A DNA stretch of 34,495 nt, taken from positions 1-34,495 of IMG/VR virus record IMGVR_UViG_3300042888_001347, one strand, 5' to 3'. The translations under genes and the position numbers were made by a program. Positions 1,558 to 27,043 of this stretch are shown here, in pieces. Below the pieces are notes generated by a model that was not told the DNA's origin, ran no database searches, and was given only the letters and a program-made list of their open reading frames with translations. Positions within the stretch are counted from its first letter, which is position 1; every line of letters begins with the position of its first letter. The stretch comes from a virus.

Positions 1558-3398
1558 TGCCAAGCGATGGAAGCACCTACGTCTCGTTTACGTTTGACTC
1601 AACTACCTACACGCTTCCCTACGCGAACATCTCGGCGTATGAACACAAGCCCGTCTACGCCGAAGACGGCTACACGCTGATCCGATACGAGGTTCACGTT
1701 GCTGGCAGCGCCTTGATTTCTAACGGAACAAGTACCTATACCGATCTTGCGACCCGGTTTCAAAAAGGCACAGGTCGCGTAGACAATGTCTTTGTCAGCG
1801 TAACAACGCCAGAGGGTACGGAAAACCTCCTCGACATCAGCCACCCCGACACCATGCGCGGCCCGTTAATGTCAATTACGGTGACGGAAATTAGCGGCCG
1901 CCGCGCTTGTATTGTCAACTTCACCATTTCGGCGGCGTTGGCGCTAGACGGGAACTCACAAGAACCAAGCCCGTACCCAATTCTTTCGCACCGCTGGACA
2001 TCTCGATTTGCCCTTGACGCTGGTGGGCATATCACGCGCACGGTGTCGGGCGTGTTGGTGGTTGACCTTGCAGCAACTGGGACAACAGCTACGGCTGCCA
2101 TAAGCGGATCATCCGCAGCAGTAAGCGGCAAGGCTCCTTACGCGGATTTGTTCCGCCGAGCGATTCTTCCGATTGCCCCGGGCGTAGGGAATTGGCGGCG
2201 TGAGTCTCAGACCTATGCCTACAACGAGGCGGGCAATTCGCTCATCTACGAGATCACCGATTCACAGGCTCGGACGGCTTTGCCTGATGCCGCGTTCGCT
2301 GGTACGGCTGAATTCACTTACGAGCGCAATGCAAATATGTTGTCATGGGGGCAACTGCGTTTCTCATGCGACCTAGAGGGAGCGGTCAACGGCGATGTCC
2401 GGAGTTTGATTTGGGCGGCCGTGGTTCTTGCTCAGTCGCGCATCATTTTTGCTCGCTGCAAGATCATGCGGATAGTGGTGACCGAGCAGGATATGCTCAA
2501 GAAGGCCAAGATCCGATTTGAGATGGACGCGCTTTCCCCAGCGATTGCTGCGGACGTGGCTGGCGTTTCGTCTTACGCCGTTCCGCTTGCCCAGATTGTT
2601 GGTAAGTCCTTTGGCGTAGGTCGCACTTGCCCAGCCCTTCCCGACCCGTACAGCCCCTACAACGGCGTTGCTGGTGTCCCGCATTGGGTAGACAATGAGA
2701 CAAGCGCAAAGACACAGACCACCCAGACCATAGCGGTTGCGTCATGTATTGCGGTCATCAATGAATATTGCAGCCCGGGAACCCCGACCATCAGTATTGA
2801 GGTTCCGGATACTCAATTCACAACCATTAACGGCGTTATCAATGTCGGCGTGTTTAGTACCGACCAGCCGCTCGCGCAGTTTAATGGCGATGGACAAACG
2901 ACATCCGTAGAGCAGTCCAAGACAACTACGAACGTCAGCACCCAAACGCGGATGCACCGACTGCAAACGCTCTACACCGAAGGCGCTGATTTCGTGTTTC
3001 AGACAGGTAAGGCATCAGTCACGCTAGAAGAGACAACCGTAGTCTCTCGCGTCAATGTCCCACCTGTTCGGACGTTCCGCCCCATCCCCGCTGGCTTTGT
3101 GGTCATCAATGACGACTGGAAGGTCAATCACGGAAACGTCGATCCGGCTGGGCAGCGCACGTTCATTGGGGTCTACACGCGCACGCTTCGCTCGTATGAC
3201 GGCGGCGGCGCAACGAGCTTCGGGTATTCAACCGTAAGCGGTCGCAGACAATGGTGGCCAAGTGGACAAAGCCCCAGCGTTGCCGCTCCTCTTGCCCTTG
3301 GGTACGACCCGCAGAACCAAGTCGATGCAAGCTCGGTGCTTTCGCTTGGAAGCAACGCGCAGGCATACCAAGTCGGCACGCCACAGGACTACGCGTAA
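1557..3398 (+). CDS. Tail-tip / baseplate structural protein
   Basis: A 613-residue, beta-rich protein (many alternating Thr/Ser/Val strands) that begins with a TAATG overlap. Residues 1-370 look like an N-terminal tube- or hub-type beta domain; residues 400 onward are Thr/Ser-rich and resemble a fibre-like extension. No signal peptide or membrane segment is visible. Gene order (tape-measure candidate, then this gene, then another large beta protein, then a tailspike) suggests a distal tail or hub component made late in infection. I do not recognise a named family. It ends in TAATG, coupling it to the next gene. Confidence 0.5.
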   Translation: MPSDGSTYVSFTFDSTTYTLPYANISAYEHKPVYAEDGYTLIRYEVHVAGSALISNGTSTYTDLATRFQKGTGRVDNVFVSVTTPEGTENLLDISHPDTMRGPLMSITVTEISGRRACIVNFTISAALALDGNSQEPSPYPILSHRWTSRFALDAGGHITRTVSGVLVVDLAATGTTATAAISGSSAAVSGKAPYADLFRRAILPIAPGVGNWRRESQTYAYNEAGNSLIYEITDSQARTALPDAAFAGTAEFTYERNANMLSWGQLRFSCDLEGAVNGDVRSLIWAAVVLAQSRIIFARCKIMRIVVTEQDMLKKAKIRFEMDALSPAIAADVAGVSSYAVPLAQIVGKSFGVGRTCPALPDPYSPYNGVAGVPHWVDNETSAKTQTTQTIAVASCIAVINEYCSPGTPTISIEVPDTQFTTINGVINVGVFSTDQPLAQFNGDGQTTSVEQSKTTTNVSTQTRMHRLQTLYTEGADFVFQTGKASVTLEETTVVSRVNVPPVRTFRPIPAGFVVINDDWKVNHGNVDPAGQRTFIGVYTRTLRSYDGGGATSFGYSTVSGRRQWWPSGQSPSVAAPLALGYDPQNQVDASSVLSLGSNAQAYQVGTPQDYA

Positions 3399-23643: not shown

Positions 23644-25136
23644 TGCCCGACCCGATCAACAACCCGCTCTCGCAACGTCAGTCGATCCCCGGCGCAGGAT
23701 TGCCACCAACCAAGCGACCGCGCAAGCCGCTCCCGCCTCCGATTGATCGTGGACTGACCGGGCCGCTCGCCATGCCTGTGGAAGTGCAGCGGAGTTTCTT
23801 CCGAACCGCCAGCCTGATGCTGCGGAACTCCAGCCTTGCGTACCGCCTTGACCCGAACTATCAGGCGATGATGCGGGCAGACGCGGACATCGAGGGCGTG
23901 CTGCGCTCCCTGCTCGTGACCCTTGCCGGGTTGGAGTGGAACGTCCTTTCCGACGACGAATCAGACCCGCGCCTCGTCAAGCTCGCCGAGCGCATTGCTG
24001 AGATCATCGGCGCAGCCCCTCGCCGTAGCGATATGTTCCGCTCCTTGCACGAAGCCGTCTGGTATGGGTGCAGCGCCGTGAACGTCGTCTACGACCGTGA
24101 CCCGCGCCTTGGGGTACGCATCCGCGAATGGCTCCCGCTCGCCTCCGACACCCTCGCCTTTGACCAGACCGGGAACGTGGCAATGCGCGTTGGTAGCGCC
24201 TACATCAACGAGGCATCCGTCACCGACCTCGGCTTTGACTCGCTCGTCCACCTGTTTGACGACAACGAACGCCGCGCCATTGTCCTGCACCGCGTATTTA
24301 CCACCGCGCCAAACTTCATCGACCCGAACAGCGCCGAGACGGTTTACCGTGGCGTAGGTGCGCGAGATGTCTGTTGGTACATCTGGCTCTTGAAGCAGGA
24401 AGTCCTACAGAACGCCGCCGCCTATGTGGAGCGGTACGCCCTCGGCATCCGTGTTGGGTACTACCCAGCCGGGAACGATGCAGCCAAGAGCGAGATGATG
24501 ACCATCCTGCAAAACTTGGTCAATGACAACTCGGTCGTCCTGCCCCGCATTTCGCCGACCGAGTCCATGTACGACATCGACATCAAGGACGCGAACGGTG
24601 GCCGCGCCCAGATCTTTATGGAGTTGGTCAACTGGCTCTCTGGCAAACTCAAGGAAGCGATCCTCGGTCAGTCGCTCTCTAGCGAGGCTGGCGGGACGGG
24701 TATGGGGTCAGGCGTTGCCGACCTCCACGCCGATACCCTTTCTCGCGTAATCCGCTATCACGCGGATTGCCTCGCGGAGAGCCTGACTACCGACCTTGTC
24801 CGCATCATTGCCGGGATGCTCGGAGCCTCCGAAGAGGATGCCCGCCGCATTCGGTTCGTCTTCGCCCCGGAGCGCCCGAACCCGAAGGAGCGGCTCGAAG
24901 CAATTCAGACGTTTATCCAAATGGGTGGCCGCGTCAGCGAGCGCGAAGTCCGCGACCTGCTCGGCCTGTCCGACCCGGAAGACGGGGAATCCGTCCTTGG
25001 CGGTCAAGCCGCAGGCAGCGCGGGCGCATCGAGCAACCCGCTCTCAGCCATGCTCGGGCAGGGCAACGAGAGCGAGGGCGACGAGCCAGCCCCTGAAGCG
25101 CCGAAGGTAGCCGCCGTCCGTAAGCGCAAGCGATGA
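23643..25136 (+). CDS. Portal protein, DUF935 / Mu gp29-like
   Basis: A 497-residue protein with the features of the Mu gp29-like portal family (DUF935): a proline-rich N-terminus, DADIEGVLRSLLVTLAGLEW (about 79-98), a central LHEAVWYGCSAVNVVY segment, and the typical KEAILGQSLSSEAGG...GSGVADLHADTLSRVI stretch (about 340-370) before the C-terminal domain. Portals form the dodecameric ring through which DNA enters and leaves the head. It is followed by a MuF-type protein with a 4-nt overlap, the order expected for Mu-like head modules. Confidence 0.9.
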   Translation: MPDPINNPLSQRQSIPGAGLPPTKRPRKPLPPPIDRGLTGPLAMPVEVQRSFFRTASLMLRNSSLAYRLDPNYQAMMRADADIEGVLRSLLVTLAGLEWNVLSDDESDPRLVKLAERIAEIIGAAPRRSDMFRSLHEAVWYGCSAVNVVYDRDPRLGVRIREWLPLASDTLAFDQTGNVAMRVGSAYINEASVTDLGFDSLVHLFDDNERRAIVLHRVFTTAPNFIDPNSAETVYRGVGARDVCWYIWLLKQEVLQNAAAYVERYALGIRVGYYPAGNDAAKSEMMTILQNLVNDNSVVLPRISPTESMYDIDIKDANGGRAQIFMELVNWLSGKLKEAILGQSLSSEAGGTGMGSGVADLHADTLSRVIRYHADCLAESLTTDLVRIIAGMLGASEEDARRIRFVFAPERPNPKERLEAIQTFIQMGGRVSEREVRDLLGLSDPEDGESVLGGQAAGSAGASSNPLSAMLGQGNESEGDEPAPEAPKVAAVRKRKR

Positions 25137-27043
25137 CCAAAGCCGAACTCGACAAGCACCTCCGCAAAGTCCTGCGCCAGTCGCAGCAGGCGTACCGTAG
25201 GGCGGTCGCGGCTCAGGTCAGGGGCGAAGATGCCCTTGCGGCGTGGGCAGAGTTCCACGAGGCAACGGCGGCGCTCCTGATGGCATCGTGGTTGTTCGGG
25301 GCGCGCGACACGGTAGACACCGCCAAGATCCCGGACGGGGCTATTGAAGGAATGCTGGACGATGGGGACGCGGTCAAGTTCGACCGAGACGTGCCGATCT
25401 CCCTTGAAGGCTTCGGGACAAAATGGATGGCTCCGATCACGGGCTGGTTCAGGAAGCGCGTCCCAATCTCACGCGCCGACTGGGAGTTGCTCATCAAGGC
25501 AGCAGCCGCCAGCGCCGGGGACGTGACCGATCACGAGCGCGAGAACGCCCTTCCTGACCTCCGCAAGCAGTCCCCGATCCTCGATTCGTTGTTACGTGGT
25601 GTTACACGAGGGCCGCAAGGGGCTATCTCCCGGGTGAAGCGGATCGTCGATACCACCTTCTTTGTCACCGCCATGCCTGTCGCGCAGGCGCGGATGGTGC
25701 AGGAACTGATCGCGCAGGTCATCGAGGAGCGCCCTACCAAGAGCGTGGTCGGCAAGCTCATCAAGACCATGAACCTTGGCGACTTCGTCACCACCGCCCA
25801 ACTGATGACCGGGACAGGGCTAACGTCCTCCCGCCTTGAAACCGTCCTGCGGACGAACACGAACCGCGCCATGACCGAGGGCAGCGCCGAAGTCCTACGG
25901 GACGAGCGGGTGCAGGCGTTTGTCCCGCTGGTGCAATTTAGCGCCACCAAAGACCCGCGCACCCGGGACACACATCGAGCCTTTGACGGCTACGTCGGGA
26001 CGATGGCAGACTTCGACCGCCTTGGGATTGCACCGCCGCTAGGCTTCAACTGCTTCCCCGGATGGCAACCTGTTGAAGGCGCAGTCGATATCGGCTTCCG
26101 TTCGCTATATCGCGGAGCGTTGGTAAACCTCAATACGCGGTCTGGTCATACTGTCACAGCGACAGCCAACCACCCAATACTCACCAGCCGAGGATGGTTG
26201 CCTGCTAATGCTGTCAAGGTTGGCGACAAGATGCTGCGCCGCAGCGGCAACGCCGTGGACGCGGCGGAACGATCCGGAAACGACAAGGGCGACCACCTGC
26301 CACCCACAGCCCTGCAAGTATTCGACACGCTTGCGGCGAAGGCTGTAGCCGCAACGACTGTCGACGCGAAGACTTCCCGCCATGTGTTCTACGGCGACGC
26401 GCTTTCCATGCAGGGCGAAATCGAGGTTGTATGGGCCGACCGCGTGCTGGTGTTTGATACCGTCAATGCCGAGCGCACGGATGGCATCAAAGAGCGGCAG
26501 CTCGTCCGGGCTAGTTCGCCGAGAGCAGGACTTGGCACGCTTGGTAAGGCATTCGATGCTCTGCGCCCGACTCCGGACAGCAGCCCAAGCGGCTCCGCAT
26601 TGGCGCTTGATAGCGGCAGGATCTTGCTTGATCCGGCTCCATTTCAACGCTTCGGACTCCCCTTGCGTGCGGAGATGAACGCCGCGGCGCTTGAGCCGCA
26701 CGTCGATTGCATTGCGAGAAACGCCGACAGATTTGGCGATTTGGTTGGTACTTTCGCCAGCGCCGTAACGCTTGACGATGTCGTCGATGTCGATGTTGTT
26801 TCTGATTGGTCTGGCCATGTGTATGACTTTCGTAGTAGCAGCGGCATTCTTCTTGCTGACAGCATAGTCGTAAGCAACTGCCGCTGCGCCATCATTCCCG
26901 TCCCGGCAGCCGAGGCGTTGCGCGAGCGATGGACGCGCCCGAACGGGACGATAGACCCAGCCGCTATTGCCAAGCACAACGGAGCGCGTCAGCGGCTAGT
27001 TGACACGCGCCAAGTTCCTGACCCCGGTTTCGTAAACGCATAA
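25133..27043 (+). CDS. MuF / SPP1 gp7-like minor head protein, intein-interrupted
   Basis: A 636-residue precursor. The N-extein (1-306) has the helical MuF layout, with the LRTNTNRAMTEGSAEVLRD segment (about 236-255) and the RDTHRAFDG motif (about 281-289), ending APPLGFN. The C-extein (583-636) begins CRCAIIPV. Joined, they restore the conserved family motif GFNCRC, so splicing removes residues 307-582 and gives a 360-residue mature protein. MuF proteins sit at the portal and act in head assembly and DNA entry. The inserted element and the antisense gene it carries are annotated separately. Without splicing the essential NCRC motif would be broken. Confidence 0.9.
   Translation: MTKAELDKHLRKVLRQSQQAYRRAVAAQVRGEDALAAWAEFHEATAALLMASWLFGARDTVDTAKIPDGAIEGMLDDGDAVKFDRDVPISLEGFGTKWMAPITGWFRKRVPISRADWELLIKAAAASAGDVTDHERENALPDLRKQSPILDSLLRGVTRGPQGAISRVKRIVDTTFFVTAMPVAQARMVQELIAQVIEERPTKSVVGKLIKTMNLGDFVTTAQLMTGTGLTSSRLETVLRTNTNRAMTEGSAEVLRDERVQAFVPLVQFSATKDPRTRDTHRAFDGYVGTMADFDRLGIAPPLGFNCFPGWQPVEGAVDIGFRSLYRGALVNLNTRSGHTVTATANHPILTSRGWLPANAVKVGDKMLRRSGNAVDAAERSGNDKGDHLPPTALQVFDTLAAKAVAATTVDAKTSRHVFYGDALSMQGEIEVVWADRVLVFDTVNAERTDGIKERQLVRASSPRAGLGTLGKAFDALRPTPDSSPSGSALALDSGRILLDPAPFQRFGLPLRAEMNAAALEPHVDCIARNADRFGDLVGTFASAVTLDDVVDVDVVSDWSGHVYDFRSSSGILLADSIVVSNCRCAIIPVPAAEALRERWTRPNGTIDPAAIAKHNGARQRLVDTRQVPDPGFVNA
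26051..26878 (+). mobile_element. Intein in the MuF protein
   Basis: A 276-residue Hint-type intein (residues 307-582). Cys1 is at 26051-26053; block A includes GFRSLYRGALVNLNT; block B is TATANHPILTSRGWLPA with the T-x-x-H pattern; the C-terminal block reads GHVYDFRSSSGILLADSIVVSN, followed by Cys+1 at 26879. The residue before the terminal Asn is Ser instead of the usual His, a known but less frequent variant. No LAGLIDADG or HNH domain is present on the sense strand. The central region (about residues 380-540) is longer than a mini-intein needs and is explained by the gene on the opposite strand. Confidence 0.88.
26105..26818 (-). CDS. Antisense homing endonuclease inside the intein (HTH plus Vsr/EDxHD-like nuclease)
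   Basis: A 237-residue protein on the strand opposite the intein. I start it at ATG 26818; the frame is open further to 26977 but those residues mirror the extein. Residues 10-58 are a clear HTH region: IVKRYGAGESTNQIAKSVGV, SRNAIDVRLKRRGVHLR. Residues 105-180 look like a PD-(D/E)XK nuclease of the Vsr/EDxHD type: an acidic helix (E106), HQHAVGPYNLDFAL with D133, VAVEHMAG with E144, then basic RRKR (161-164) and GCGWQVVALVV (170-180). The tail has a GEYWVV strand. Such enzymes cut intein-less alleles so that repair copies the element. The ribosome site is weak. Antisense ORFs in this register are often spurious in GC-rich DNA, but this one has two ordered, recognisable domains. Confidence 0.75.
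   Translation of the reverse strand: MARPIRNNIDIDDIVKRYGAGESTNQIAKSVGVSRNAIDVRLKRRGVHLRTQGESEALKWSRIKQDPAAIKRQCGAAWAAVRSRAQSIECLTKRAKSCSRRTSPDELPLFDAIRALGIDGIKHQHAVGPYNLDFALHGKRVAVEHMAGSLRVDSRCGYSLRRKRVEYLQGCGWQVVALVVSGSFRRVHGVAAAAQHLVANLDSISRQPSSAGEYWVVGCRCDSMTRPRIEVYQRSAI

Follow-up and report, generated by a model that had tools for sequence, protein, structure and literature searches.

The window analysed here, 34,495 nucleotides of viral DNA (positions 1 to 34,495 of IMG/VR record IMGVR_UViG_3300042888_001347), contains a gene for a MuF-like head protein in which codons 307-582 encode an intein, and the DNA of this intein carries on its opposite strand an open reading frame for a second protein with a predicted helix-turn-helix (HTH) and a predicted nuclease domain (Table 1). 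The first-pass annotation, made from the sequence alone, had placed the intein exactly at the NCRC motif of MuF, and this placement was borne out by intein-less MuF alleles of related viral contigs, which read ...GFN/CRCAIIP... (the slash marks the insertion point) and set the ends of the intein. Because the GFN/CRC of these alleles is unbroken, the insert can be fixed at positions 26051-26878. The nearest intein-less contigs have MuF flanks that are 93-100% identical at the protein level, and within the phage group of the window the insert was present in seven contigs and absent from about fifty.

Table 1. Features of the intein-interrupted MuF gene and of the gene on its opposite strand, in positions of the window.
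Feature	Position	Strand	Evidence or remarks
MuF-like minor head (head morphogenesis) gene, intein-interrupted	25133..27043	+	Pfam Phage_Mu_F 7.8e-11, residues 222-307
Intein, 276 aa, 828 bp	26051..26878	+	Uninterrupted alleles in related contigs; sense AlphaFold model
Intein splice-junction residues	C1 26051-26053; terminal Asn 26876-26878; C-extein +1 Cys 26879-26881	+	
Intein block B, T-A-N-H, residues 38-41	26162..26173	+	T38 and H41 invariant in 44 aligned inteins
Intein block F, H-V-Y-D-F (family consensus GHVYDLQ)	26816..26830	+	Reverse strand gives antisense start codon and Shine-Dalgarno region
Antisense gene, 237-aa HTH and predicted nuclease; ATG 26818-26816, TAG 26107-26105	26105..26818	-	ORF, Pfam, 48-member alignment
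Weak Shine-Dalgarno-like GAAAGT, 7 nt before antisense ATG	26826..26831	-	GGAGGT/GGAGAT in most relatives
Helix-turn-helix, antisense protein residues 11-44	26687..26788	-	HTH_7; model helices 11-19, 24-31, 35-44
Nuclease domain (predicted), antisense protein residues 104-206	26201..26509	-	DUF559/MTES_1575; fold nearest I-Bth0305I catalytic domain
Predicted catalytic/conserved E106	26501..26503	-	E in 70/72 sense-ascertained loci
Predicted catalytic D133 (Y-N-L-D)	26420..26422	-	D in 71/72 sense-ascertained loci
Predicted catalytic E144 (A-V-E)	26387..26389	-	E in 71/72 sense-ascertained loci

Read in the forward direction, the insert has the splice residues, the HINT fold, and the precise in-frame insertion with uninterrupted alleles by which inteins are recognised. 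C1, T38, H41, and N276 were invariant in an alignment of 44 inteins, and the +1 residue was cysteine in 116 of 126. The AlphaFold model of the sense intein comprises a splicing fold built from residues 1-60 and 240-276 (block-mean pLDDT 86-97), a moderate-confidence subdomain at about residues 80-135, and a disordered or low-confidence stretch at residues 136-223, and the PDB structures nearest to it were inteins, with the Mtu RecA intein matched at a probability of 1.00. The Pfam family Intein_splicing scored weakly on the window alone (20.6 bits, cut-off 35.8); in the 45 host proteins scanned, it was matched by 41, and Phage_Mu_F by 31. No endonuclease or nuclease family was matched on the sense strand, either by Pfam on the window or in the 45 host proteins, in agreement with the first-pass annotation, and the intein of the window thus lacks the in-frame endonuclease domain that characterizes in-frame homing endonuclease inteins. 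The conserved residues and the model suggest that the insert of the window would undergo protein splicing.

The opposite strand holds the 237-residue open reading frame with an HTH that had been reported from the letters alone, and its extent through the mirror of block B is likewise as described. Profile searches gave matches above the Pfam gathering scores to HTH_7, the resolvase-type HTH (24.3 bits, cut-off 23.8), and to DUF559 (22.1 bits, cut-off 20.6), and 37 of 48 aligned antisense proteins matched the MTES_1575 nuclease family. In this 48-member alignment Y130, N131, D133, and R164 were invariant, and E106, Q124, and E144 were each present in at least 90% of members; the residues singled out at first reading, D133, E144, and the basic RRKR, held up, D133, E144, and R164 of the latter being invariant or almost so in sets of 48 and 139 relatives. 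A sequence search of the PDB with the single antisense protein produced no match and a profile was required, which retrieved a solved endonuclease-like structure (3hrl, 8e-7) and the homing endonuclease I-Bth0305I (3r3p, 0.0046), with E144 aligned to a glutamate of the latter. The AlphaFold model (pLDDT 83) consists of a three-helix HTH, a helical linker, and a core of a helix, three strands, a helix, and a further strand, in which D133 and E144 lie on adjacent strands. Its best PDB match in Foldseek was the catalytic domain of I-Bth0305I (3r3p, probability 1.00, E 8.2e-3), with the Vsr structures 1cw0 and 1vsr lower in the list, although the E-values are modest, the best being 8e-3. The outcome that was to count against the first-pass annotation, neither a profile match nor a predicted nuclease fold, was thus not obtained. 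Of the initial designation of a Vsr/EDxHD-type core, the Vsr-like fold is retained as a prediction, and the strict EDxHD label is not established: the alignments of 48 and 139 conserve E106, D133, and E144 but have no invariant H/D pair after them, and the predicted catalytic core of E106, Q124, Y-N-x-D133, and E144 resembles that of the DUF559/MTES_1575 branch of the fold.

Antisense and intein codons coincide exactly, sense codon position 1 lying opposite antisense codon position 3. In most members of the family the block F histidine (G-H-V-Y-[DN]-L-Q) is encoded by CAT, which reads as the antisense ATG on the other strand; in members that use CAC for this histidine the antisense start would be GTG. 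The codons of the [DN]-L-Q of block F read in reverse as GGAGGT or GGAGAT in most members, about 7 nt before the start, and the leucine is encoded by CTC in 73 of 98 motifs, compared with 27% of extein leucine codons. Because the reversed codons give a Shine-Dalgarno sequence followed by ATG or GTG, the conserved block F motif would also act as a ribosome-binding site and start codon. Block F of the window has phenylalanine in place of this leucine, the Shine-Dalgarno sequence there is weaker (GAAAGT), and a promoter scan of the region around the antisense gene detected nothing sigma-70-like on either strand; on these points the case for expression in the phage of the window is weakest. We infer from the sequence that the antisense gene is transcribed and translated.

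The arrangement is that of a family of more than 300 viral contigs and of prophages in several bacterial phyla. Relatives of the antisense protein are encoded in 110 phage-collection records, from phages of Aggregatibacter, Vibrio, Gordonia, Pseudomonas, Salmonella, Escherichia, and others, and the features named among the matches listed were mostly MuF/head proteins or hypothetical proteins; a scan of IMG/VR found relatives in 331 viral contigs. In all 93 loci of the set L001-L093, with locus G+C ranging from 0.35 to 0.71, the nuclease ORF was antisense, stop-free, in register 0, and within a longer ORF (L091 also has a register-0 sense partner), and the same antisense register-0 arrangement occurred in nine bacterial contigs, assigned by their titles to Proteobacteria, Acidobacteria (Terriglobus), Actinobacteria, Firmicutes, and Chloroflexi; the search for homologues of the arrangement that had been proposed for the window was thus answered in the affirmative. 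One scan used the pattern YN[LIM]D in the antisense protein, and a second required only the sense splicing domain (blocks A-B) and recovered the antisense nuclease in 77 of the best 80 loci, with the other three ending at a contig edge. Four other phage inteins, one each in a portal, a terminase, a gyrase A, and a Gordonia MuF protein, were without such an antisense gene.

Selection on the two strands was assessed in a nonredundant set of 72 loci for which the sense splicing domain was the only search criterion. These had 0 antisense stops, whereas about 489 would follow from the codon usage of the exteins (ln P about -555), and their 1705 leucine and 1459 serine sense codons include no TTA, CTA, or TCA, so that the antisense stops in close relatives that were to count against the original proposal did not appear. 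Members of low G+C (35-43%) were also stop-free, where mostly 15-25 antisense stops per gene are expected. Ascertainment bias from the YN[LIM]D pattern was considered and rejected, since the loci found by the sense domain only gave the same result. A codon-position test drew on 34 pairs in which no locus occurred twice; changes at sense position 1 divided by those at sense position 3 gave 1.21 in the region of the HTH, 1.58 in the linker, and 1.25 and 1.20 in the nuclease, against 0.84 opposite block B and 0.64 in the exteins. Changes thus peak at sense codon position 1, which is the antisense wobble position, and therefore indicate antisense coding; the antisense domains differed from the exteins with a Fisher P of 4e-71, for which substitutions were pooled and some pairs came from the same close groups. 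In the same 34 pairs antisense identity exceeded sense identity everywhere but opposite block B, where the sense protein was the more conserved.

Codon choice opposite the predicted catalytic residues followed the same direction. The sense residue opposite D133 is valine or isoleucine and always encoded by GTC or ATC (71 of 72 loci), the codon opposite Y130 is GTA or ATA (65 of 72), that opposite N131 is GTT or ATT (67 of 72), and that opposite E144 is TTC or CTC (71 of 72), while GTA makes up only 12% of extein valine codons. Constraint on the sense protein alone gives no explanation for adjacent valine or isoleucine positions that each have their own fixed third base. Dual coding, with both strands under selection, is demonstrated computationally by these data together with the Shine-Dalgarno sequence and start codon mirrored in block F. 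In the sense protein, DFHGD..G-x-V-x-V-V could pass for a conserved intein motif, but it mirrors Y-N-x-D...A-V-E of the nuclease. Sense residues 80-135 (window 26288-26455) are predicted to be structured, although what is conserved there is dictated by the antisense nuclease, and a sense role may perhaps have been gained here.

Intein-less MuF sites are common alongside occupied ones in the phage group of the window, in Gordonia phages, and in Guernseyvirinae, and two Gordonia phages, Sedona and Vivi2, carry differing inteins at the same site of MuF proteins whose exteins are almost identical. Salmonella phage UPWr_S5 and E. coli phage Snoke (L010/L011) have intein DNA that is 95.6% identical, flanked on the left by 120 bp at 92-93% identity, with MuF DNA further upstream at about 70%; the short flank of high identity is the pattern expected of co-conversion. 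The pair L012/L213 is similar, and L167/L172 have inteins that are 85% identical in MuF genes of around 57% identity. The empty and occupied alleles, together with near-identical inteins in diverged MuF genes, show that the intein is mobile and has moved horizontally. The antisense gene lies inside this mobile intervening sequence and travels with it, and its product unites a predicted nuclease with conserved residues (E106, D133, and E144 in at least 70 of 72 loci) and an HTH DNA-binding domain, as is typical of homing endonucleases.

Several members depart from the usual form. In L026 (2-1660) and also in L027 the intein with its antisense nuclease lies in a RecA-like gene (Pfam RecA 2.6e-6) and not in MuF; because the host is RecA-like, the intein has reached another gene. 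Escherichia phage vB-Eco-KMB36 (L156, 1278-3248) carries a family intein at a second MuF site (...TSTT/C...KN/CRARDG...), upstream of the usual NCRC site that is occupied in the related phage Snoke. A Chloroflexi contig (L252) has an antisense ORF of 461 codons (1859-3241) in which the nuclease is preceded by several HTH-like repeats, and a single sense frame stays open across the whole of it; other members have one or two HTHs, and the HTH copy number may set the target length. In the viral contig L058 (1325-5623) a portal protein, a family intein, and a zeta-toxin-like kinase domain form one long ORF. Relative to the window at about 26510-26575, some 60 bp of the linker between HTH and nuclease are replaced in the close relative L019, with both proteins altered and both frames open; a compensated frameshift was considered for this linker and rejected, as the alignment is more like that of a replaced segment.

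We favour the reading, which we hold to be very probable, that the MuF insert is a mobile intein and that the gene for its homing endonuclease is contained entirely in the complementary strand of the intein coding DNA. Read forward, the splicing domain would excise itself from the MuF head protein, and the middle of the intein would be in part a small subdomain and in part a disordered loop that needs only an open frame. Read in reverse and in exact register, the same DNA would encode a separate protein with an HTH and a Vsr/DUF559-type nuclease, the gene beginning at the reverse complement of block F (CAT as ATG, after the Shine-Dalgarno sequence) and continuing through the mirror of block B. 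During co-infection this nuclease would bind and cut intein-less MuF alleles, and repair would copy the intein, nuclease gene included, into the cut allele.

Against this, the antisense ORF could be a shadow of selection on the sense intein only, as antisense stops in this register come only from TTA, CTA, and TCA, which are rare in GC-rich genes such as those of the window (about 60% GC), open and seemingly conserved antisense frames are thereby frequent in GC-rich DNA, and some antisense similarity always follows from sense conservation. However, members at 35-43% GC are stop-free despite the stops expected of them, changes are concentrated at the first sense codon position, the codons opposite the catalytic residues are limited to synonyms that keep D, E, Y, or N on the antisense strand, and the nuclease and HTH have homology and a fold of their own; we rejected such a shadow on the stop avoidance, the codon-position rates, and the codon choice, and its probability is minimal. 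It is about as hard to credit that the intein reading frame has decayed or does not splice and that the region amounts to no more than a nuclease gene placed within MuF: the weak Intein_splicing score of the window would fit, but C1, the block B threonine and histidine, the terminal asparagine, and the +1 cysteine are retained, nearly all host proteins scanned match Intein_splicing, the sense model is a confident splicing fold that matches inteins, and the sense frame is open throughout although the opposite strand is the more strongly selected. Somewhat less remote, though still unlikely, is that the nuclease-like protein is made and lives in the intein as a regulator, as an interference nuclease against competing phages, or as a repair enzyme, since proteins with an HTH and a Vsr-like nuclease can have other jobs; yet the nuclease was tied to inteins at every locus found, the presence of the intein varies from allele to allele, transfer between diverged MuF genes is seen, and the nearest solved structure is a homing endonuclease.

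Inteins have been described with the endonuclease fused in frame (PMC3943268), as a nuclease domain within the intein in PI-SceI and TliVMA, for example (PMC3943268; PMC8966425). The family described here shares with these a precise insertion in a conserved gene, a splicing element, and mobility by an encoded endonuclease, but theirs is an in-frame domain, whereas the putative enzyme here is a separate protein of the opposite strand that overlaps blocks B and F. Antisense homing genes are known from the nuclear group I introns Dir.S956-2 and Dsq.L2066 of Didymium (PMC9548176), where the homing gene likewise lies on the strand opposite a self-splicing host element; those introns, however, are RNA elements of eukaryotic rDNA that house the gene in a peripheral insertion, and the other strand codes for no protein, whereas here two proteins share the same codons. 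The phage homing endonuclease I-Bth0305I, which belongs to the Vsr-like EDxHD enzymes, derives from a group I intron (PMC3943268). It resembles the antisense protein in nuclease fold and in conserved glutamate positions, but an HTH-first architecture and a strict EDxHD motif are not common to both on present evidence. The 'fractured genes' of Dassa et al. 2009 reportedly have a Vsr-like endonuclease gene between two split-intein halves, and so also associate such a nuclease with inteins, but without overlap of the nuclease gene and the intein coding sequence. The DUF559/MTES_1575 nucleases (PF04480, PF18741; 3hrl) share the core E..Q..(Y)..D..E with the antisense protein, with significant Pfam matches, and we know of no description of them as homing enzymes or as antisense to inteins. 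Searches of openly accessible journal papers turned up no intein with an antisense endonuclease, and within that scope the arrangement deserves the description 'very unusual' that it was first given. Mobile inteins are known; the superposed antisense genetic architecture appears to be new, and the observation of an antisense gene inside an intein is stronger than the first-pass annotation claimed.

Taken as a class, these widespread phage inteins are probably true dual-coding mobile elements, in which a splicing protein and a separate homing endonuclease would be written in superposed codons of opposite strands, GHVYDLQ would at the same time supply the gene on the other strand with its ribosome-binding site and start codon, and recombinational separation or independent decay of the two would be hard. 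To our knowledge, conserved antisense protein-protein overlaps with two recognisable domains are very rare, and the hundreds of members of this family are natural replicates of such a dual-domain overlap, as well as compact natural dual-coding sequences for protein design. Those inteins of this kind that are currently read as nuclease-less are mis-annotated. An intein can, on this reading, acquire an endonuclease without in-frame fusion; and in the usual homing cycle of inteins the endonuclease decays once no empty sites remain, which superposed coding could counteract.
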